NCBI GenBank assembly: GCA_008375315.1
Contig: CP032507.1
Location: 2,035,001 to 2,099,000 of the forward strand
From: Ectothiorhodospiraceae bacterium BW-2
Lineage (GTDB): Bacteria; Pseudomonadota; Gammaproteobacteria; Thiohalomonadales; Thiohalomonadaceae
Direction: 5' to 3'
DNA: 64,000 bases
The notes under the pieces are model-generated. The model was not told where the DNA came from. It saw only the letters and a program-made list of their open reading frames with translations, and did not search any database. Of the stretch, positions 10,401 through 37,855 are shown piece by piece. How positions within the stretch are numbered: position 1 is the stretch's first letter; every line of letters begins with the position of its first letter. Both the position numbers and the translations under genes were made by a program.

Positions 10401-10495
10401 ATTGACAGGTTACCCCCCTGAGTGTCAAGATACCCTGAGACCACCCCTGATGAGAAATGAATGTAGAATCAGGGGGGCAACAGAGGAGATACACG

Positions 10496-10900
10496 ATGCC
10501 CAAAGATACTACCGTTTTACCCTCCAACGAGGTTACCGACCCCGATGAAGAGAAGCGCTCCTACCGCAAATTTAGTGAGGAAGAGAAGCTTCGGATCCTA
10601 GCAGAAGCAGAGCAGTGCAAGGAGCCGGGTCAGCTAGGCGAGCTGCTGCGCAAAGAGCAGATCTACAGCTCCCATCTGACCAAATGGCGCCGACAACTGC
10701 AAGCACAGGGGCAGGCTGGCCTGAAAGGGAAACAGAGTGGTCGCAAACCGAGCCTAGACAAGCGAGATAAGGAGATAGAGCGTTTAAAGAAGGAAATTCA
10801 GCGTCTTAGCCAACGGTTACAGCAGACCGAAGGGGTGATTGCGCTCCAAAAAAAAGCCTTCAGCTTATTGGAGCAGATGAACACAGAGATAAGCTTATGA
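10496..10900 (+). CDS. IS3-family transposase OrfA (copy 1)
   Basis: 134 residues from ATG at 10496, which has AGAGGAGA just upstream; an earlier in-frame ATG at 10457 lacks a good site. A helix-turn-helix region (YRKFSEEEKLRILAEAEQC...LLRKEQIYSSHLTKWRR) binds the IS ends and a C-terminal leucine-zipper-like coiled coil (IERLKKEIQRLSQRLQQTE) mediates oligomerisation. The stop overlaps orfB in ATGA, suggesting coupling rather than classic -1 frameshifting. Confidence 0.9.
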   Translation: MPKDTTVLPSNEVTDPDEEKRSYRKFSEEEKLRILAEAEQCKEPGQLGELLRKEQIYSSHLTKWRRQLQAQGQAGLKGKQSGRKPSLDKRDKEIERLKKEIQRLSQRLQQTEGVIALQKKAFSLLEQMNTEISL

Positions 10901-11946
10901 GATTAGTTGAAAAAGAGTGCCCCAGTTCGGTGAGCATAAGAGCCGCTTGCGATAGCCTAGCGCTCTCGCGTGCAGGCTACTACCGCCGACAGGCTCCGGT
11001 TGTCTCCCCCCGAGCGAGCCTTCCAAGACCCGTCGCAGCCAATGCGCTGAGTGAGGCAGAGAGGCAAGCCGTTCTGGGGCTTTTGAACAGCGAACGATTC
11101 TATGACCAACCTCCGGCAGAGATCTATGCTAGCCTGCTGGATGAAGGGAAATATTACTGTTCAATCAGTACGATGTATCGGATCCTTCGTGCTAATCAAC
11201 AGACGGGAGAGCGGCGAGCTCAAAAACCGGCCAAATCACACGCTATCCCCCGATTACGGGCGACCCGCCCGAATGAGGTTTGGACATGGGATATCACTAA
11301 GCTTCCCACCACAGAGCAGGGTAACTTCTTGAATCTCTATGTGGTGATGGATCTCTACAGCCGTTTTATTGTGGCTTGGATGGTCTCAAGGAAGGAGAAT
11401 AGTGAGCTCTCCAAGCTGTTAATCAGTGACGCAGCGGCTCGCTATCGGGTCGCGCTCAGTGGCTTAACACTGCATCAGGATAGAGGTGTGCCGATGACCG
11501 CCAGAGGCTATCTCGACTTGATGGCCGAACTGGGGATCACCTGCTCCCACAGCCGTCCACGAGTCAGTAACGACAATCCGTTTAGCGAGAGTCAATTTAA
11601 AACACTCAAGCAACAACCCGATTATCCTCAACGATTTACAGGAGTTGACCATGCCAGAATATGGTTTAGTGACTATGTTGACTGGTACTGTTTCCACCAC
11701 CACCATCGAGGGATTGCGTGGTTCACTCCAGAGCAGGTATTTACCGGTCGTTACAAGGAGGTTAGCGAGCAGCGTGAACAGGCGCTGAAGCAGGCCTATC
11801 AGCAGCATCCGAAACGCTTTATTCATGGTGAGCCCAAGGTTAAGCAACCCCCTACTGAGGTATGGATTAACCCCGCTCTACCGGAGGAGGGGGTGGGGTC
11901 GCTGGAGGTCAACTATCCAACCCTGAATAGAGCGAAGGAGAGATGA
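10897..11946 (+). CDS. IS3-family transposase OrfB, DDE integrase (copy 1)
   Basis: 349 residues with an N-terminal HTH_21-like region (SIRAACDSLALSRAGYYRR) and a retroviral-integrase-fold core. Catalytic residues: WTWDITKL (D1), HQDRGVPM (D2), and NDNPFSESQFKTLK (E). D2 and E are separated by 35 residues, the DD(35)E spacing of the IS3 family. Frame intact, no stops, so probably active. Confidence 0.93.
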   Translation: MRLVEKECPSSVSIRAACDSLALSRAGYYRRQAPVVSPRASLPRPVAANALSEAERQAVLGLLNSERFYDQPPAEIYASLLDEGKYYCSISTMYRILRANQQTGERRAQKPAKSHAIPRLRATRPNEVWTWDITKLPTTEQGNFLNLYVVMDLYSRFIVAWMVSRKENSELSKLLISDAAARYRVALSGLTLHQDRGVPMTARGYLDLMAELGITCSHSRPRVSNDNPFSESQFKTLKQQPDYPQRFTGVDHARIWFSDYVDWYCFHHHHRGIAWFTPEQVFTGRYKEVSEQREQALKQAYQQHPKRFIHGEPKVKQPPTEVWINPALPEEGVGSLEVNYPTLNRAKER

Positions 11947-26450: not shown

Positions 26451-26708
26451 ATGAGTACACCACAAATTTTACCGATGATTCAGGCTCTGCCTCATGCCGA
26501 AAAAATACAGCTTATGGCACTTTTGGTGCAAGAGATTGCTAAAGAGGAGCAAATTCCTCTCCAGCAAGTCGAATCGGTACATGCTTCACCTGTAAGCGGC
26601 GCAGAACGATATGCCAAAATTCGGCAGTTGGTGGAGCCATTGCATGGAATTGAACTGGAACTTCCCACACGCAATGCCATGCCTCAACCGCCTGACTTTA
26701 GCGAATGA
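26451..26708 (+). CDS. vapB: Antitoxin of FitB-like VapC pair
   Basis: 85 residues (MSTPQILPMIQALPHAEKIQLMALLVQEIAKEEQ...), AT-balanced, ATG preceded by AGGAACAG. The C-terminal half is Pro-rich and probably unstructured until bound to toxin. Overlaps vapC by ATGA. Confidence 0.75.
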   Translation: MSTPQILPMIQALPHAEKIQLMALLVQEIAKEEQIPLQQVESVHASPVSGAERYAKIRQLVEPLHGIELELPTRNAMPQPPDFSE

Positions 26709-27139
26709 TTATTCTCGACACCAATGTGCTGTCTGAGTTGATACGGTTACAACCTGACATGCAAGTTATCCATTGGTTTCGTAGTTTACAAAACCAACAA
26801 TGTGTCACGACCACGATCACTCGTGCCGAAATCAGATACGGCATCGGCTTATTGCCCGAAGGCAAGCGAAAACACCAACTCCAACAGGCAGTCATTGCTC
26901 TGTTTCAACCAGCGATTGTTGAACAAGTTCTCCCTTTCGATACCGATGCTGCCGATTGTTATGCCGAAATAGCCATACTAAGACGACAGCATGGTCTGCC
27001 GATCTCGCAGTCTGATGCCATGATTGCTGCAATTACCAAAACTCATACTGCCACGCTGGCAACGCGTAATATCAAAGATTTTCATCACTGCGGTATTGCT
27101 CTCATTGATCCATGGAATAGGGAGGAACAGGTTCGATGA
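26705..27139 (+). CDS. vapC: VapC-type PIN toxin (FitB-like), intact
   Basis: 144 residues: MIILDTNVLSELIRLQPD (first Asp), TTTITRAEIRYGIGLLPEG (Glu), ILRRQHGLPISQSDAMIAAITKTH (Asp), LATRNIKDFHHCGIALIDPW (last acidic). Complete FitB/VapC PIN ribonuclease. Its TGA overlaps the ATG of the methylase pseudogene, so the module was placed exactly at, or co-evolved with, that gene's start. Confidence 0.9.
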   Translation: MIILDTNVLSELIRLQPDMQVIHWFRSLQNQQCVTTTITRAEIRYGIGLLPEGKRKHQLQQAVIALFQPAIVEQVLPFDTDAADCYAEIAILRRQHGLPISQSDAMIAAITKTHTATLATRNIKDFHHCGIALIDPWNREEQVR

Positions 27140-27621: not shown

Positions 27622-28671
27622 TCATCTCTCCTTCGCTCTATTCAGGGTTGGATAGTTGACCTCCAGCGACCCCACCCCCTCCTCCGGTAGAGCGGGGTTA
27701 ATCCATACCTCAGTAGGGGGTTGCTTAACCTTGGGCTCACCATGAATAAAGCGTTTCGGATGCTGCTGATAGGCCTGCTTCAGCGCCTGTTCACGCTGCT
27801 CGCTAACCTCCTTGTAACGACCGGTAAATACCTGCTCTGGAGTGAACCACGCAATCCCTCGATGGTGGTGGTGGAAACAGTACCAGTCAACATAGTCACT
27901 AAACCATATTCTGGCATGGTCAACTCCTGTAAATCGTTGAGGATAATCGGGTTGTTGCTTGAGTGTTTTAAATTGACTCTCGCTAAACGGATTGTCGTTA
28001 CTGACTCGTGGACGGCTGTGGGAGCAGGTGATCCCCAGTTCGGCCATCAAGTCGAGATAGCCTCTGGCGGTCATCGGCACACCTCTATCCTGATGCAGTG
28101 TTAAGCCACTGAGCGCGACCCGATAGCGAGCCGCTGCGTCACTGATTAACAGCTTGGAGAGCTCACTATTCTCCTTCCTTGAGACCATCCAAGCCACAAT
28201 AAAACGGCTGTAGAGATCCATCACCACATAGAGATTCAAGAAGTTACCCTGCTCTGTGGTGGGAAGCTTAGTGATATCCCATGTCCAAACCTCATTCGGG
28301 CGGGTCGCCCGTAATCGGGGGATAGCGTGTGATTTGGCCGGTTTTTGAGCTCGCCGCTCTCCCGTCTGTTGATTAGCACGAAGGATCCGATACATCGTAC
28401 TGATTGAACAGTAATATTTCCCTTCATCCAGCAGGCTAGCATAGATCTCTGCCGGAGGTTGGTCATAGAATCGTTCGCTGTTCAAAAGCCCCAGAACGGC
28501 TTGCCTCTCTGCCTCACTCAGCGCATTGGCTGCGACGGGTCTTGGAAGGCTCGCTCGGGGGGAGACAACCGGAGCCTGTCGGCGGTAGTAGCCTGCACGC
28601 GAGAGCGCTAGGCTATCGCAAGCGGCTCTTATGCTCACCGAACTGGGGCACTCTTTTTCAACTAATCTCAT
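27622..28671 (-). CDS. IS3-family transposase OrfB (copy 2)
   Basis: Same 349-residue DD(35)E transposase as at 10897, residue for residue. Frame intact. Identity between the copies argues for a recent duplication or gene conversion. Confidence 0.93.
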   Translation of the reverse strand: MRLVEKECPSSVSIRAACDSLALSRAGYYRRQAPVVSPRASLPRPVAANALSEAERQAVLGLLNSERFYDQPPAEIYASLLDEGKYYCSISTMYRILRANQQTGERRAQKPAKSHAIPRLRATRPNEVWTWDITKLPTTEQGNFLNLYVVMDLYSRFIVAWMVSRKENSELSKLLISDAAARYRVALSGLTLHQDRGVPMTARGYLDLMAELGITCSHSRPRVSNDNPFSESQFKTLKQQPDYPQRFTGVDHARIWFSDYVDWYCFHHHHRGIAWFTPEQVFTGRYKEVSEQREQALKQAYQQHPKRFIHGEPKVKQPPTEVWINPALPEEGVGSLEVNYPTLNRAKER

Positions 28672-29072
28672 AAGCTTATCTCTGTGTTCATCTGCTCCAA
28701 TAAGCTGAAGGCTTTTTTTTGGAGCGCAATCACCCCTTCGGTCTGCTGTAACCGTTGGCTAAGACGCTGAATTTCCTTCTTTAAACGCTCTATCTCCTTA
28801 TCTCGCTTGTCTAGGCTCGGTTTGCGACCACTCTGTTTCCCTTTCAGGCCAGCCTGCCCCTGTGCTTGCAGTTGTCGGCGCCATTTGGTCAGATGGGAGC
28901 TGTAGATCTGCTCTTTGCGCAGCAGCTCGCCTAGCTGACCCGGCTCCTTGCACTGCTCTGCTTCTGCTAGGATCCGAAGCTTCTCTTCCTCACTAAATTT
29001 GCGGTAGGAGCGCTTCTCTTCATCGGGGTCGGTAACCTCGTTGGAGGGTAAAACGGTAGTATCTTTGGGCAT
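28668..29072 (-). CDS. IS3-family transposase OrfA (copy 2)
   Basis: 134-residue HTH/coiled-coil protein identical to that at 10496; start at the ATG at 29072 behind AGAGGAGA; stop overlaps orfB in ATGA. Confidence 0.9.
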   Translation of the reverse strand: MPKDTTVLPSNEVTDPDEEKRSYRKFSEEEKLRILAEAEQCKEPGQLGELLRKEQIYSSHLTKWRRQLQAQGQAGLKGKQSGRKPSLDKRDKEIERLKKEIQRLSQRLQQTEGVIALQKKAFSLLEQMNTEISL

Positions 29073-29470
29073 CGTGTATCTCCTCTGTTGCCCCCCTGAT
29101 TCTACATTCATTTCTCATCAGGGGTGGTCTCAGGGTATCTTGACACTCAGGGGTGATTACCACATTCCCAAAGGGTTGCAGTTCAAAGATGAGTGCAGTC
29201 GTGCGTTTCAGATTGCTACGGCATTGTGGCACACATTTCAGACTGCTTGTTAGCGTACTGACAAGGATCCACAAGGGATTACCAAGAAGTTTGTTAGCAA
29301 ATTATTACGCGACGCATTCGGTTATCATGGGATGGTACGAACTGAGAGTATAACTATTCATGATCGCCGTTTTCCCATATCGCTGCGCTATCAAACCATA
29401 CCGGTCGTGATTGCTCCGCATCAGTCAACAATTACTTTCCAACAGGAATTTATAGTATGTATTTGGGAGC

Positions 29471-30360: not shown

Positions 30361-31710
30361 ATGGGACGCTCTCTCCATATTCTCGGTATCTGCGGTACTT
30401 TTATGGCAGGGCTAGCGGTGCTGGCGCGAGAGCTAGGGTATCGGGTAACCGGTCAGGATGCCAATATCTATCCCCCCATGAGTACCCAGCTACAGCAGGC
30501 GGGGATTGAGCTCATTGAGGGGTATCGCGGTGCCGATATCCCTACCGATAGCGAGTTAGTGCTCATTGGTAACGCCCTATCGCGCGGGAACAGTGCCGTC
30601 GAGTGGGTGCTCAATCGGCGTCTGCCCTACCGCTCCGGCCCCGAGTGGTTACAGCAGCAGCTACTAGGGGAGCGCTGGGTAGTGGCGCTCTCGGGGACGC
30701 ACGGTAAAACCTCGACCACCGCCATGGTGACAACGATGCTACAGCAGTGCGGTTTTGAGCCGGGATTTCTAATCGGTGGCGTCGCCCCCGGTCTCGGGCT
30801 TTCAGCTCGTTTAGGTCGTCCGCCCTACTTTGTTATTGAGGCGGACGAGTACGACTCGGCTTTTTTCGACAAAAGGAGCAAATTTCTCCACTACCGGCCA
30901 CAGACGCTAGTGGTGAATAATCTTGAGTTTGATCATGGTGATATCTTTGCCGATTTGACGGCGATAGAGACCCAGTTTCACCATCTGCTCCGAACCGTTC
31001 CGGGGCGGGGGAAGATTATCTACCCTGCGGGAGTCGCCGCGATTGAGCGGGTACTCCAGCGCGGCTGCTGGAGCGATACCGAGCGGCTGCACCACCCCGA
31101 TGGCTGGCAGGTAGAGCGGCAGGAGACGCCGGCGGGGCAGCAGCTACAGTTTTGGTGGCAGGGCGAGCGACAGGGGGAGCTGCTGTGGAGCCAAGCGGGT
31201 GCCCACTCAGCCGCCAATGCGCTAGCTGCCCTTGCTGCGGTGCGACACGCCGGTATCCCCCCGCCTGAGGCGATTGCGGCGCTATCGCACTATCAAGGGG
31301 TTAAACGGCGGTTGGAGACTATCTGGCAGCGCCACGGGATTGTGATCTACGACGACTTTGCTCACCACCCGACCGCGATTGCGACCACTTTAGCGGGGGT
31401 GCGGCAGCGCTATCCTAAACAGCGGCTGATTGCGGTGGTGGAGCCGCGCTCGAACACCATGCGCCTAGGGGGGCATCGGGATAGCCTGCCGCAGGCGCTG
31501 GCGGTGGCCGATGTGGCATTTATCTATAGCGGTCAGCTAGCGTGGCAGTTAGCGGCGGGTGAGAGTATCGCCGTTAACGAGTTATCTGAGCTAGTCGAAC
31601 AGGTGGCCGACGCCGCCGTGGCAGGGGGGCATATTGTGGTCATGAGTAACGGTAGTTTTGACGGCTTTCACCAGCGCTTAATCACAGCCCTAGAGCAGCG
31701 ACTGGGGTGA
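30361..31710 (+). CDS. mpl: UDP-N-acetylmuramate:L-alanyl-gamma-D-glutamyl-meso-diaminopimelate ligase
   Basis: 449 residues, the usual Mpl length. N-terminal Rossmann-like domain ([20 protein letters not shown], with the GTFM variant typical of Mpl rather than MurC), ATP-binding [12 protein letters not shown] (about 111-122), [16 protein letters not shown], and C-terminal [10 protein letters not shown]. The enzyme joins recycled murein tripeptide to UDP-MurNAc in cytoplasmic peptidoglycan recycling. The stop overlaps the ubiX start by 4 bp. Confidence 0.95.
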
Positions 31711-32321
31711 AACAGATCACGCTCGCCTTGACTGGTGCCTCGGGAGCGGCCTACGGTCTGCGGCTGCTACAGCAGCTACTGCTCAGTGAGTGTGAGGTCT
31801 TTCTCATCTACTCTAAGGCGGCGCAGGTGGTGCTGGCGACCGAAGTTGAGCTAAAACTCAGTTCGCGTCCCGAACAGGCTAAGCCGCAGCTATTAGACCA
31901 TCTGCAGCTCCCACAGCGAGCGGAACAGTTGAGTGTATTGGGGCGGGAGCAGTGGTTCTCGCCCGTTGCGAGTGGATCGTCAGCGCCGGCGGCGATGGTC
32001 ATCTGCCCCTGTTCGACCGGAACACTGGCGGCGGTGGCGCACGGTCAGAGCAGTAATTTAATTGAGCGGGCTGCTGATGTGGCGCTTAAAGAGCGGCGTC
32101 AGCTCATTTTGGTGCCTAGAGAGAGCCCCTACAGCACCATTCAGCTACAAAATATGTTGACCTTAAGCCAAGCGGGGGCGACGATTTTGCCCGCTAGCCC
32201 CAGCTTCTACCATCGGCCCGAGTCGATAGAGGCGTTAATCGACTCGGTTGTGGCCAGAGTGCTAGATCATCTACAGTTAGAGCAGCAGCTAGTGCCGCGT
32301 TGGGGCCGTGGCGTTGGATAG
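31707..32321 (+). CDS. ubiX: Flavin prenyltransferase UbiX
   Basis: 204 residues from GTG 31707 within mpl's stop. [20 protein letters not shown] at the N-terminus binds [32 protein letters not shown] and [18 protein letters not shown] complete the family signature. UbiX makes prenylated FMN for the UbiD decarboxylase in ubiquinone synthesis. Operon with mpl and the adenylate cyclase homologue. Confidence 0.95.
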
Positions 32322-32327
32322 GGCTCG

Positions 32328-35189
32328 ATGTCCCTTTGGCATACGCTAACGACCTATCTGCAGCCGCAGCTATGGCGGTGGCTGTTGCAGCAGCGGCTCG
32401 ATCGCTGGCGGGCCGATTGGGCGCTACTGCTGGAGCGGGAGACGATTCGGCAAAAACGGCGGCTTATCGAGTGCTACGATACGCTACAACAGCAGCGACG
32501 CGAGCGAGCCGAACTGGTGCTACCGCCGAAAAGACGCCCATTTTTACGCTTAGTGCCGCTCTACTGGCACTGTAACCACCCCGGATTGCCCGGTTTTATC
32601 GATCGGCGTGGGATGCCGACCGGTATCTACCGCTTTACCCCCGATGAGGAGCTGCTACAGTTAGCACACCAGCAGCATCCGCTGTTTGAGTACCTCTCGC
32701 CGCTGCTGCCGCGTTTTGGAGCGCTGTTTGAGGTCAACGGCGCCGGTACCCTGACTCAGACAGCCGAGCATCGGTTTCGCTTCTGGATCTGTCACGAAGC
32801 GGCTCTCATCGAACAGGAGCTGCTATGGTTGCAGTATAAGGCCGATGCGTTACAGCAGTTTGCCGAGCACCAGCGGCTACAGGCCGAATTTATCTTAATC
32901 AATAGCAACAAGGTGGCAGCGGGGCTACTCAATCCGCTCTATCCGTGGCTCGATGGCTCCTCGGCCCTGCTGCTCATGCGCGATACCCTCTACCACAATG
33001 CTCTGCAGTTAGCTGGGCAGATACCGTTATGGTGGCTCATCGCTCCCGAACAGGAGGGGGAGTATCAACCGAGCCGCGAGTCGCTGGCGCTAAAACATTT
33101 CGATTGGTGTCGAGAGGTGATCGACTTAGGGCCGCTGCCGCAGGTCGCTGCGGGGGATTTTTTTGCAGTGGCGCTACAGCTGCTGCAGCGAGGAGTCGCC
33201 GAGCCCTACTCCCATCTGATTGAGCTACAGCGGGTAGAGTTCTACCTGTTTCAGCAGCCGTTGGTGGACTATCTTAGCCACCAATTGAAGCGGGAGTTGG
33301 TATTAAACGGTAGTCCGAGTACGATTGATCCTTGGCAACAGCTAAGCGATGCTCTATTGGGGCAGGATGGGTCGAGGATGGCCACAGAGGAGTGGCAGAT
33401 GGTGCGTCAAGCGCTCTTTCTACAGCTTAACTGGACCGGTGTCTCAGCCCACTACCAGCCGCAGTGGCGCCTCTCAGCGCTAGCGAAGTGGCAGCAGCAG
33501 TGGCAGCTATCGGCCTCTGAACGACAGCAGTTGCAGCGCTACGCTAACTGGCCTCTCTCCGCGCTGCTCCGTGAGCGCCAGCTGCTCTATCGCTATTTTT
33601 ATCGCCAGCTACAGCGTCTGCTGAGTTTAGCGAAAGAGCGGGACGATATTGAACACTCACGCATCGAGCTGTCGCTGCTACAGCGGCAGTTAACGACGAT
33701 CATGCAGCTACGAGAGGGGAAGGTTCTCTGGCTAGGGCGGGGAGTGCCCCACCTGCCTCAACCACACTCCCTGCTGCTGCAGGAGCAGCCGTCGCCACGA
33801 GATAGGCGACCGCAGTGGCAGCTACTTAGCGTGCCGTTGGTAACTGAAGGTGAGGGTGGCGACATTACGCTGTGTCTGCAACGACAAAATCTTGTCGAGC
33901 TGGTTAGCTGGTGCAGCTTTAACCACCTTAATCAGGGCCCAGTGGCGCTGCAACGGCAGCGAGTTCGGGTTACCGAAAAGCAGTTAAACCAGCTATTACA
34001 GCGACAGCAACGGGGGTTTCGCGACTGGCTCGACTATCAGCCTAAGGGTAGCGATTTTCGGGTACGGGAGCAGCCGCTCGTCTCGCAGCTAGTGATCAAT
34101 TTTGGCCTGACGGCAGAGGATCAGCCCGAAGGGTTGAGCACCGAGGGGGGGGAGCCGTTGCTTCACGGCGATAGCGCCACTTCACTCTTTAGGTCTCTTG
34201 ACTGGGTCAGCCTCACTAATTGGGGGGAGATAGCGTGTCGCCACTACCATGGCGAGCAGGGGCTGGCCGACTGGGTGTGTGACTATCTGCGCCTCTATCC
34301 GCTCTCGGGGGCACTCCATCCGCCGCTGCCGCAGCTACTGACCTTGGGGCCAGATTGCCATAGCAGTATGAACGGGGCGTTTACACAGTGGTTTAATGCC
34401 ATTGTCGAGCTCTTTTATGTGGCCAAAAACCGCTTTTTTAGCCGTCTGATTTGGCAGCAGGGGCAGCACTACTACCTCTTTTATATCGACAAGGGGCAGC
34501 AGGTGGGGTACCACTGCGGTAGCTGGACGGCACTGCTGCTGCAACTACAGCAGCCGCTATCCCATTTCACCACCAGCCGCTATGTTCCCAATACGACTAC
34601 CGAGCCGCTGGCGCTCATTGTCACCCTCAATCGCCCCCAATTGGTGCAGGCCTTTGGTTGGCAGACGGCGGGAGAGTTTAAGCTATGGGTGGCGGATGAG
34701 CGGGGCAGCTACTACTATCTACACGAAAAGATCGCCGCCCATCCAGAAGAGCAGTGGCGGCGATATCAGCGGCTACTGCAGGCGCTGGTTGTGCAGCAGC
34801 AGCGGCTGGTTAAACGCAAGGTGGTGCGCAGTGCCCCTAGACGGGTCGCGTGGTATCGGCTTGAGTTGTCTCAGGGGGAGCTAGATTGGGTGGCCACGCC
34901 ATTGAACATAGGCATCCAACGGCAGAGCAGGCCGCAGCTACAGCTACAGCTACAGGGGGAGGGGGTCGTGTTGCGGTTTAAATCGGAGCGTCTGGCTGAG
35001 AGTGAGTATGGTGAAAGATTAGCTGGCGAGCTAGTTGCCCGCTGGCGGCGTCACTGTGCCCAAGCGCCGCAGATTAGCGCTGTCGTGGTCGGCGGGAGCT
35101 ATTTGCGCCGCTATGCTGCCAAACGGCTGCAAACGGTGCGGCTGTTGCGCTATTATCACCATTGGCAGAGTCGATTGGATGCTATTTAG
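32328..35189 (+). CDS. Class I adenylate cyclase homologue, catalytic motif degenerate
   Basis: 953 residues, close to the length of CyaA-type cyclases. N-terminal domain matches the family: RLVPLYWHCNHPGLPGF, PTGIYRFTPDEE, and after the active site FWICHEAALIEQE, LLLMRDTLYHNALQLAG, IPLWWLIAP. In active class I enzymes the stretch reads about MGSxxSxxQSxxSDLDIWVCH; here it is VNGAGTLTQTAEHRFRFWICH (residues 136-156). Ser-Asp-x-Asp is replaced by His-Arg-Phe-Arg, removing both metal-binding aspartates. The reading frame is intact over 2.9 kb, so the protein is maintained but probably cannot make cAMP. Follows ubiX after 6 bp. Confidence 0.85.
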   Translation: MSLWHTLTTYLQPQLWRWLLQQRLDRWRADWALLLERETIRQKRRLIECYDTLQQQRRERAELVLPPKRRPFLRLVPLYWHCNHPGLPGFIDRRGMPTGIYRFTPDEELLQLAHQQHPLFEYLSPLLPRFGALFEVNGAGTLTQTAEHRFRFWICHEAALIEQELLWLQYKADALQQFAEHQRLQAEFILINSNKVAAGLLNPLYPWLDGSSALLLMRDTLYHNALQLAGQIPLWWLIAPEQEGEYQPSRESLALKHFDWCREVIDLGPLPQVAAGDFFAVALQLLQRGVAEPYSHLIELQRVEFYLFQQPLVDYLSHQLKRELVLNGSPSTIDPWQQLSDALLGQDGSRMATEEWQMVRQALFLQLNWTGVSAHYQPQWRLSALAKWQQQWQLSASERQQLQRYANWPLSALLRERQLLYRYFYRQLQRLLSLAKERDDIEHSRIELSLLQRQLTTIMQLREGKVLWLGRGVPHLPQPHSLLLQEQPSPRDRRPQWQLLSVPLVTEGEGGDITLCLQRQNLVELVSWCSFNHLNQGPVALQRQRVRVTEKQLNQLLQRQQRGFRDWLDYQPKGSDFRVREQPLVSQLVINFGLTAEDQPEGLSTEGGEPLLHGDSATSLFRSLDWVSLTNWGEIACRHYHGEQGLADWVCDYLRLYPLSGALHPPLPQLLTLGPDCHSSMNGAFTQWFNAIVELFYVAKNRFFSRLIWQQGQHYYLFYIDKGQQVGYHCGSWTALLLQLQQPLSHFTTSRYVPNTTTEPLALIVTLNRPQLVQAFGWQTAGEFKLWVADERGSYYYLHEKIAAHPEEQWRRYQRLLQALVVQQQRLVKRKVVRSAPRRVAWYRLELSQGELDWVATPLNIGIQRQSRPQLQLQLQGEGVVLRFKSERLAESEYGERLAGELVARWRRHCAQAPQISAVVVGGSYLRRYAAKRLQTVRLLRYYHHWQSRLDAI

Positions 35190-35214
35190 ATAAAAGTCTT
35201 AGGGAGCGGATAAG

Positions 35215-36402
35215 ATGAGTATTGAGGTAAAACTGTCCCAATTTCCCGAGTCGGTGAGCGAAGGGACGCTATTGAAGTGGTACCGCCAGACGGGAGAGAG
35301 GGTGAAACAGGATGAGTCGCTAGCGGAGATTGAGACTGATAAGGTGATTCTCGAAATCCCCGCGCCGGCGGCGGGGGTATTGAGCCAAATTTTGGTACAG
35401 GAGGGGGAGAGCGTAACTAGCGAGGCTCTGCTAGGGCGGATTGAGCCGGTGAACGAGATTGACACGGGCACCGGCACTGAAGCTGCTAGCATAGCCCCCC
35501 CGCAGCAGCCAGCGATGAGCCCAGCCGTACGAGCGCTGCTACAGCAGCACCAACTCAATCCGACAGCCGTCGAGCCGAGCGGCAAGGGGGGGCGACTACT
35601 AAAAGAGGATGTCCTAAAGGCGGTGGCCGACAAAGAGCCTCCAGAGGTGGCAGCGACAGCCGCGACCACGCCTAATCTGTCAGAGCCGACGCCTCACGGC
35701 GAGCGACTGACACGCAAAGAGCCGATGAGCCGTATTCGGGCTCGCATTGCCGAGCGTTTAGTCGAATCGCAGCAGAGTAGCGCGACCTTAACGACCTTTA
35801 ACGAGGTCGATATGAGTGCCGTGATGGCGTTACGGCAGCGCCACGGCGAGGCGTTTGAGAAGCGCTATCAGATTCGGCTAGGCTTGATGTCTTTCTTTGT
35901 TAAGGCGGTCACGGCGGCACTACAGCAGTTTCCAATCATCAACGCTTCGACCGAAGGGAGTGATATTCTCTACCACCCATTTTACGACATTGGCATTGCG
36001 GTTAGCTCACGGCGGGGGCTAGTTGTGCCGATTCTGCGCGACTGCGATAGACTCAGTTTTGCCGCCATTGAGCAGACGATCGCCCGCTTTGCCAATGAGG
36101 CGAGGGAGGGGAGCTTGGCGCTTGAGGATATCACCGGTGGCACCTTCTCCATCTCCAATGGCGGCGTATTTGGCTCGCTTCTATCGACCCCGATCCTCAA
36201 TCCACCCCAAAGTGCCATTTTAGGGCTGCACAAGATCGAAAAGCGGCCTAGGGTGATCGACGAGGAGATTGTGATTCGACCGATGATGTATTTGGCACTA
36301 TCGTATGATCATCGCATTATCGATGGCAGCGATGCGGTACGCTTTTTGGTGACCGTAAAGCACTACATTGAACAGCCCGTTACCCTACTGTTAGAGTTAT
36401 AG
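35215..36402 (+). CDS. sucB: Dihydrolipoyl succinyltransferase, E2 of 2-oxoglutarate dehydrogenase
   Basis: 395 residues: lipoyl domain 1-77 with lipoyl-Lys in [10 protein letters not shown], peripheral-subunit-binding domain about 101-138 ([13 protein letters not shown]...GRLLKEDVL), and catalytic domain with [31 protein letters not shown] and catalytic SYDHRIIDG. These match the succinyl- rather than acetyltransferase type. Good ribosome binding site AGGGAG. lpd follows after 10 bp; sucA is not in this window, so E1 is encoded elsewhere. Confidence 0.95.
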
Positions 36403-36412
36403 GAGATATGTC

Positions 36413-37855
36413 ATGAGTGAGACTACCCACTACGATGTTATCGTCATCGGAGCCGGAACGGCCGGCTATGTGGCGGCGATTCGCGCAGCCCAACTCGGAC
36501 TAAAGAGCGCCTTAATCGATGAGTGGCGCGACAGCCGTGGCGAGCAGCGCCTTGGCGGCACCTGCCTTCATGTCGGCTGTATCCCCTCTAAGGCGCTACT
36601 AAAGAGCTCAGACTACTACCATAAGGTGCGGCACGAGCTAGCCGAGCACGGTATCACCTGCTCTGAACTGACACTCGATTTAGCGCAGATGATGCGGCGT
36701 AAACAGCAGCTCATCGACAAACTGACCGCCGGAATCAAAACGCTACTACAGGCCAATGGCGTGCAGCTAATCGCTGGCCGGGGACGGCTGCTGCCAGAGA
36801 AGCGGGTCGAGGTGACCACTTTTGAGCAGCGCGTTGAACAGCTAGCGTATGAACATGCGATTTTGGCCACCGGCTCTCGACCGGTCGAAATAACCCAAGC
36901 GCCGGTCGATCACCAAAATATCGTCGATTCGACTGATGCGTTGGCATTTGACGAGGTACCTAAACGGTTAGGGGTGATCGGTGCCGGGGTGATTGGGTTA
37001 GAGCTCGGCTCGATTTGGAGTCGGCTTGGGAGTAAAGTGGTACTGCTAGAGGCGCAGGAGAGCTTTCTATCGATGCTCGATGAGACGATTGCCCATTTAG
37101 CGCTGAAAGAGTTTCGCCGTCAGGGACTCGATATTCGGCTAGGGGCGAGGGTGATCTCTAGTAGTGTTGGCAAAAAACAGATCAGCGTCAGCTATCAGCA
37201 GGGAGAGGAGGAGTTGCGAGTACTGGTCGATAAGCTCCTAGTCGCTGTCGGGCGCACACCTAATACCGCCGATTTAACCTCGGATGAGCTGGCGCTACTG
37301 TTAGATGAGCGCGGTGCGATTCATGTCGATAGCGCCTATCGTACCAATCTGCCCGGTGTCTATGCGATTGGGGATGCGATTCGTGGTCCGATGCTAGCCC
37401 ATAAAGGATCGGAGGAGGGGATAAGGGTTGCCGAAATGATTGCCGGTAGTGGTATGGGAGTGGCACCGGTGTCGATTCCTGGCGTGATCTATACCTCGCC
37501 CGAAATCGCCTGGGTTGGCGAGAGTGAGCAGAAGCTACAGGCGGCAGCGACCCCCTATCGAGTCGGCCAATTTGCCTTTGCCGCTAATGGCCGAGCGGTG
37601 GCGATGGGAGAGGGGCAAGGGCTGGTTAAAATCATCAGCCACGCCGAGAGTGATCGCATTTTGGGGGTGCATATTATCGGCCCGATGGCCTCAGAGCTGT
37701 TAGCGACTGCCGTGGTGGCGATGGAGTTTGAGGGCAGCGCCGAGGATTTGGCTAGAACGATTTTTGCCCATCCTACCCTTTCCGAAGCGCTACATGAGGC
37801 GGCACTGGCAGTTGATGGACGGGCGATTCACTGGGTTGCAACAAAGCGCCCGTAA
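36413..37855 (+). CDS. lpdA: Dihydrolipoamide dehydrogenase
   Basis: 480 residues: FAD-binding VIGAGTAGYVAAIRAAQLG, redox-active disulfide GGTCLHVGCIPSKALL, NAD-binding VIGAGVIGLELGSIW, second FAD motif GVYAIGDAIRGPMLAHK, and the active-site base in FAHPTLSEALHEAAL. Regenerates oxidised lipoate of E2 with NAD. AGGAGATATGTC precedes ATG. Operon with sucB. Converges on the chemoreceptor gene with only 4 bp between stops. Confidence 0.96.
   Translation: MSETTHYDVIVIGAGTAGYVAAIRAAQLGLKSALIDEWRDSRGEQRLGGTCLHVGCIPSKALLKSSDYYHKVRHELAEHGITCSELTLDLAQMMRRKQQLIDKLTAGIKTLLQANGVQLIAGRGRLLPEKRVEVTTFEQRVEQLAYEHAILATGSRPVEITQAPVDHQNIVDSTDALAFDEVPKRLGVIGAGVIGLELGSIWSRLGSKVVLLEAQESFLSMLDETIAHLALKEFRRQGLDIRLGARVISSSVGKKQISVSYQQGEEELRVLVDKLLVAVGRTPNTADLTSDELALLLDERGAIHVDSAYRTNLPGVYAIGDAIRGPMLAHKGSEEGIRVAEMIAGSGMGVAPVSIPGVIYTSPEIAWVGESEQKLQAAATPYRVGQFAFAANGRAVAMGEGQGLVKIISHAESDRILGVHIIGPMASELLATAVVAMEFEGSAEDLARTIFAHPTLSEALHEAALAVDGRAIHWVATKRP

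Follow-up and report, generated by a model that had tools for sequence, protein, structure and literature searches.

An open-frame class I adenylate cyclase homologue with a degenerate active site, beside three intact-motif paralogues, in Ectothiorhodospiraceae bacterium BW-2

Why would a genome carry a full-length adenylate cyclase gene whose active-site residues have been replaced? The question is raised by a gene in a 64,000-nucleotide stretch of Ectothiorhodospiraceae bacterium BW-2 (contig CP032507.1, positions 2,035,001 to 2,099,000; hereafter the window, to which all coordinates refer). The gene (32328-35189, plus strand) begins with ATG and runs through 953 codons without an internal stop, and its product, P0001, scores above the gathering cut-offs (27 bits each) of both Pfam models of the family, i.e., Adenyl_cycl_N (PF12633, 114 bits, residues 45-236) and Adenylate_cycl (PF01295, 133.2 bits, residues 263-812), which makes it a class I adenylate cyclase by descent. 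An earlier first-pass annotation, made from the letters alone, had described this frame as full length and otherwise family-like, and had placed it downstream of mpl and ubiX, and both descriptions agree with what we found. On the same strand, mpl (30361-31710; TIGR01081, 580 bits, cut-off 388.7) and ubiX (31707-32321; TIGR00421, 180 bits, cut-off 108.9) lie directly upstream, with only 6 bases between the end of ubiX and the ATG, and the stop codon is followed after 25 bases by sucB (2-oxoglutarate dehydrogenase E2, 35215-36402; TIGR01347, 501.8 bits, cut-off 378.65) and then lpd (dihydrolipoyl dehydrogenase, 36413-37855; TIGR01350, 516.8 bits, cut-off 408.8), giving the same-strand run mpl-ubiX-P0001-sucB-lpd. 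Promoter-like sites were no commoner here than in shuffled sequence (2 against 3.9), terminator-like sites (9 against 6.8 in shuffles) were uninformative, and the GC content of the gene by codon position resembles that of its neighbours. In this part of the window (32328-37855) sucB and lpd have no adjoining sucA, and P0001 occupies its usual place. Elsewhere in the window we noted an IS3-type transposase pair (349 and 147 aa, 27622-29111, NCBIfam IS3 match), a second pair on the opposite strand whose ORFs match these in length (10457-11946), a methyl-accepting chemotaxis protein with a nitrate/nitrite-sensing NIT domain (PF08376, 37860-40148) and a PIN-domain protein (43.4 bits, 26705-27139), perhaps half of a toxin-antitoxin pair.

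The former active-site loop, located by alignment with homologues, spans residues 136-151 (32733-32780, plus strand), where VNGAGTLTQTAEHRFR replaces MGSxG...SDxD. Residues 148-151 read H-R-F-R (codons CAT CGG TTT CGC, 32769-32780) and align without gaps to the S-D-x-D found in 99 of the 104 homologues compared, E. coli CyaA among them, while N137-G138 stands in place of the G-S of the preceding loop; both substitutions had been pointed out in the first-pass annotation and are borne out by the comparison with the family. A frameshift or a single sequencing error at the motif fails as an explanation, as the flanking residues (F-W and C-H) are in register with the homologues and each former Asp codon is 2 or 3 bases away from GAT or GAC. 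Nor has the Asp pair moved elsewhere, an outcome that would have undone the earlier claim, since a scan of the whole protein for these motifs returned no DxD and no G[SG]xG. P0001 thus lacks both the G-S loop and the S-D-x-D metal site by which a functional class I enzyme is recognised, and the net charge of the aligned loop segment is +1, against -2 in E. coli and in three paralogues from its own genome.

The alignment comprised family members of more than 550 residues from the genomes of the relatives search, from 80 fetched stretches and from E. coli; two entries of insufficient length (L026 and L027), one broken copy (L060) and two entries that did not match the family (L061 and L062) were left aside. 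The class sample counted 369 genomes, 109 of them with a family match, and 95 of these were read; the N-domain scores of the other 14 (about 213-249 bits) are in the range of intact copies. Five rows have no SDxD, namely P0001, L055 (G107), L056 (G178), L057 (G362) and L058 (G155). These were set apart for the missing motif, so that its presence in 99/99 of the remaining rows holds by construction, but the other core columns played no part in the separation. All 99 rows keep G102, S103, E185, E242, W249, K253, K260, K264 and E269 (E. coli numbering); P0001 retains only E269 from this set, L055 retains G-S, and L057 and L058 retain K253. The damage to the core goes beyond what the first-pass annotation had listed: at E185, R188, E242, W249, K253, K260 and K264, of which none varies in more than one of the 99 rows, P0001 has T, H, D, Q, R, S and E, respectively.

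In spite of these losses, the body of the protein looks familiar. An AlphaFold2 model (48 sequences, pLDDT 84.3, pTM 0.75) predicts a nucleotidyltransferase-fold domain with a helical part at about residues 53-438 (32484-33641, plus strand), and the C-terminal part is also well predicted, except for residues 596-607. A sequence search found no PDB structure for P0001, and plain Foldseek returned no match to the model at E values up to 0.001 (best AAD(9), 8.1e-3), so the fold assignment rests on a second look at the Foldseek candidates with VIA-align, in which the nine best rows were all adenylyltransferases, headed by AadA (Z 13.0, rmsd 4.0, 232 residues, model residues 53-438). The solved aminoglycoside adenylyltransferases AadA and AAD(9) share the predicted N-terminal fold including its helical half (Z 11.6-13.0) at about 10% identity, which implies no common function. 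Modelled in the same way (43 sequences, pLDDT 86.2), the intact paralogue L030 gave a Z of 12.8 to AadA; its predicted N-terminal fold is the same as that of P0001, with the homologous alignment rows helping to make the two models alike. This fold generally needs three acids, of which Tam41 has one, and RelA/SpoT synthetases have two with one missing, and carry GR in place of GS (PMC11646218). The site might have been rebuilt, P0001 being an enzyme with other chemistry or another substrate, whose loop, rich in Arg and His, could offer a new mode of binding to a nucleotide or phosphate. The tolerance of acid loss in Tam41 and RelA (PMC11646218) and the inverted charge of the loop, from -2 to +1, which is not simple erosion, favour such a rebuilding.

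Among columns invariant in 11 intact cyclases of f1, the family to which P0001 belongs, those also conserved class-wide are kept by P0001 at 11/30 in the core, 12/14 in the N-terminal and linker parts, 11/19 in the middle region and 15/21 in the C-terminal part (about residues 467-953, 33726-35186, plus strand), a part that is regulatory in E. coli CyaA. For columns invariant only in f1, the corresponding counts are 7/20, 6/14, 8/27 and 12/52. Judging by these column counts, class-wide against f1-only, the special constraint has vanished from the core and persists elsewhere. Two intact-motif paralogues from the same genome, L033 and L034, each keep 45 of the 50 f1-invariant core columns, against 18 of 50 in P0001, and all three proteins are alike at the C-terminus (31/73, 31/73 and 27/73, respectively); the middle region (residues 272-440) is less well kept in P0001 (19/46, against 31 and 32 in L033 and L034). 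In other counts, P0001 keeps 24 of the 43 columns that are invariant in 43 intact rows, with the losses crowded at residues 137-299, and in a separate count of 88 columns it keeps 12/31 in the core regions and 41/57 elsewhere. In these same 88 columns three divergent or incomplete rows with intact motifs (L028, L029 and L059) keep 28-31/31 in the core and 36-37/57 elsewhere, and L030 keeps 31/31 in the core. Since both the 93% threshold and the borders of the regions were fixed with the alignment already in view, we put no p-value weight on the region counts. Core columns at background level (11/30 and 7/20) would, as far as a single sequence can tell, be unlike what a new conserved site leaves, and both Asp, the G-S, E185, R188, W249, K260 and K264 have all been replaced, so that we consider a rebuilt site unlikely.

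The first-pass annotation had also proposed a search of the genome for another cyclase and for CRP, and this search found both. The genome encodes four class I genes, i.e., L030, L033 and L034, all with intact motifs, and P0001, together with four class III hits and one canonical CRP, 65% identical to that of E. coli, which keeps E72, R82, S83, R123, T127 and S128, residues that we take to be the cAMP contacts. Each of the 368 other genomes in the class sample shows at most one class I gene, the two matches in G380 being pieces of one broken copy. Three gene clusters in the neighbourhood of L030 also accompany the cyclase genes in G004 and G011, for which reason L030 is likely the ancestral CyaA; none of these clusters occurs around P0001. 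P0001 is most similar to L030 (25-29% identity, varying with the alignment used) and has the same domain order, length, Pfam models and predicted N-terminal fold as L030 and E. coli CyaA, but unlike them it is without GS, SDxD and most of the invariant core residues. L033 (L036:5425-9541) immediately follows a response-regulator/GGDEF gene and an HDOD-like gene, as read from the translations, and owing to these neighbours this extra cyclase may be tied to c-di-GMP signalling. Taken together, the loss of the motifs, the kept body and predicted fold, and the other cyclases and CRP in the genome lead us to regard P0001 as an extra copy that is very probably non-catalytic. That it might nevertheless make cAMP, with other residues replacing the Asp pair, would suit its overall family likeness and the adjacent, presumably active paralogues; however, it has no DxD, two Asp of the metal site have become Arg, and the best NCBIfam class I equivalog score is far below the cut-off (334.6 against 1300 bits, for models that are narrow and with which the intact members were not scanned). 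We therefore hold this to be very improbable.

That degenerate copies recur in other lineages is something the first-pass annotation could not know. Family searches recovered a degenerate homologue in 48 of 57 genomes of the Methylophagaceae (f3) and in 10 of 54 of an unnamed family (f137); G107 (f89) has no family-mate among the genomes covered. SDxD is absent from all 29 of the 30 aligned Methylophagaceae loci that cover the motif and from all 11 of 13 in f137; it is also missing from 32 of 33 named loci, the one that keeps it (L250) being from a Moraxellaceae MAG outside the group, but this set overlaps the Methylophagaceae genomes and is not independent. In the sister family f183 a match was seen in 2 of 6 genomes, both with SDxD. 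These degenerate homologues (f3, f137 and G107) have lost the same catalytic columns as P0001 and kept the same structural ones, yet they differ from it in several ways: the ESSGSAQ loop, of which P0001 keeps an altered form, is missing, and in most of their genomes the degenerate gene is the sole class I homologue found, whereas BW-2 has intact paralogues. Moreover, 23 of 29 Methylophagaceae copies carry an acidic residue (D or E) where the second Asp belongs and P0001 has Arg; this speaks against a fully dead reading in that family and is a further point for a rebuilt site. In f137, the genomes G434 (L147) and G410 (L146) each have, besides the first homologue, another one that is more distant (21-23% identity to P0002); the frame of L147 is intact, encodes 869 aa and has no SDxD. 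All six Methylophagaceae neighbourhoods that were fetched show the gene flanked by the same conserved genes, read from the translations as purH and argC. Among 32 pairs of sequences more than 60% identical, nine have dS below 1; eight of these, all from Methylophagaceae, show dN/dS of 0.097-0.159, and the ninth, involving the broken copy L158, shows 0.309 on few changes. Pairs with higher dS are saturated, including those of f137 (0.09-0.14), and one pair has no finite dS.

P0001 and the degenerate homologues of other lineages are probably of separate origin. In a 56-row tree P0001 falls inside f1 with L030, L007, L015, L033 and L034 (support 98) and 17 other degenerate rows cluster together (support 91), and a single clade of all ten degenerate rows was rejected with the core columns removed (AU p 0.020). 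The grouping of the f3, f89 and f137 copies (support 89 to 91) is compatible with one origin among these three; constraining f3 to group with the intact cyclase of its sister family f183, from which it might descend, gave an AU p of 0.048. Long branches meet in these trees and caution is warranted, yet the longest of them, P0001, is not drawn to the other degenerate rows. We found no orthologue of P0001 in 20 genomes of the order, in 56 relatives or in genome contigs searched with six exact peptide patterns; besides the window copy, the 20 genomes of the order (all from one family) contained intact cyclases or none.

This history leaves room for a gene recently freed from selection and heading towards a pseudogene, translated only by the chance of its place among mpl, ubiX, sucB and lpd. 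The branch of P0001 is the longest in the tree (3.01 changes per column), the gene is an extra copy beside intact paralogues without a detected orthologue, and broken or fragmented copies in Methylophagaceae and related genomes (G380, G443, G450, G458 and G470) tell that such a degenerate gene can be lost. However, a frame of 953 codons subject to random point change would still lack a stop with a probability of 0.2 after 0.01 changes per site and of 0.04 after 0.02, so that the open frame fits at most about 0.02 neutral changes per site, a small part of the divergence, and nearly all of it must have accumulated under selection for an open frame. The structural columns also survived this divergence while the core columns did not, and we consider recent release from selection doubtful, to a degree close to that of a rebuilt site. 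The word "preserved", used of this gene in the first-pass annotation, thus stands in part: for P0001 itself, in which the catalytic loss, the open frame and the predicted fold are what we observe, selection is indicated indirectly by the frame and the constraint pattern, and the direct dN/dS values belong to the Methylophagaceae relatives, another family.

The Methylophagaceae differ from BW-2 in their CRP as well. It was present in 10/10 of the genomes tested (48-52% identity), and in all ten Ser83 is replaced by Met, Lys or Gly and there are five extra residues; no class III cyclase was found in any of the ten, which combine (L148-L177, L181-L190) an altered CRP with a degenerate class I homologue only. 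The CRP of G107 is likewise altered, with Gly at Ser83 and an insertion, while five of six fetched from f137 keep R-S (R-T in G386), as do two from f1. Altogether, 23 of the 25 genomes tested have a CRP-like protein at 48% identity or more, and the other two, G004 and G267, only weak ones. CYTH proteins occur in 12/12 Methylophagaceae genomes tested, and the class IV cyclase model TIGR00318 was unmatched by the three that were scanned, which makes a class IV cyclase in this family seem unlikely.

Our preferred reading, which we consider probable, is that P0001 is a catalytically dead class I paralogue that arose in a lineage-specific expansion to four copies and has been retained for a task other than catalysis. 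Every sequence measure that we applied marks it as dead, with its body kept, and the loss of the metal site, as claimed at the outset, is well supported by the absence of any DxD next to non-catalytic conserved residues and a predicted fold that are still there. P0001 has lost the SDxD that binds metal and the GS loop, together with most of the remaining invariant residues of the core, and has kept the open frame, the structural residues and a predicted fold like that of an intact paralogue; without the carboxylates P0001 would be unable to hold the catalytic metal ions and, from what is known of the family, would make no cAMP. Least certain is how it would act, possibly by binding, as a partner or decoy for the targets of its active paralogues, whether regulators or the paralogues themselves, thereby tuning cAMP output, or alternatively as a scaffold produced from its place in the mpl-ubiX-sucB-lpd run. 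Regulation or scaffolding, suggested already in the first-pass annotation, is our best guess for its role, and nothing in the analysis points to a specific partner. Several points weigh against a dead paralogue: its very long branch also fits relaxed constraint, its middle region is less well kept, and nucleotidyltransferase folds can, as in Tam41 and RelA/SpoT synthetases (PMC11646218), work with fewer acids.

Pseudoenzymes are well known among kinases, and our literature search (open-licence papers) found no report of inactive class I cyclases. We tentatively raise a broader idea, in which we place little confidence: dead class I cyclases could form a recurrent functional signalling class, with the Methylophagaceae homologue and the altered CRP as a cAMP-free pair descended from cAMP-CRP, and P0001 as an independent, earlier stage in a genome that makes cAMP. 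The wider recurrence lifts P0001 above a mere curiosity, since repeated losses of catalysis that spare the rest of the protein would imply that the CyaA body does more than make cAMP. In Methylophaga, which is harmless and cultured, this could be tested directly, as could the matter of what acts on CRP when the one cyclase recognised is a degenerate copy.
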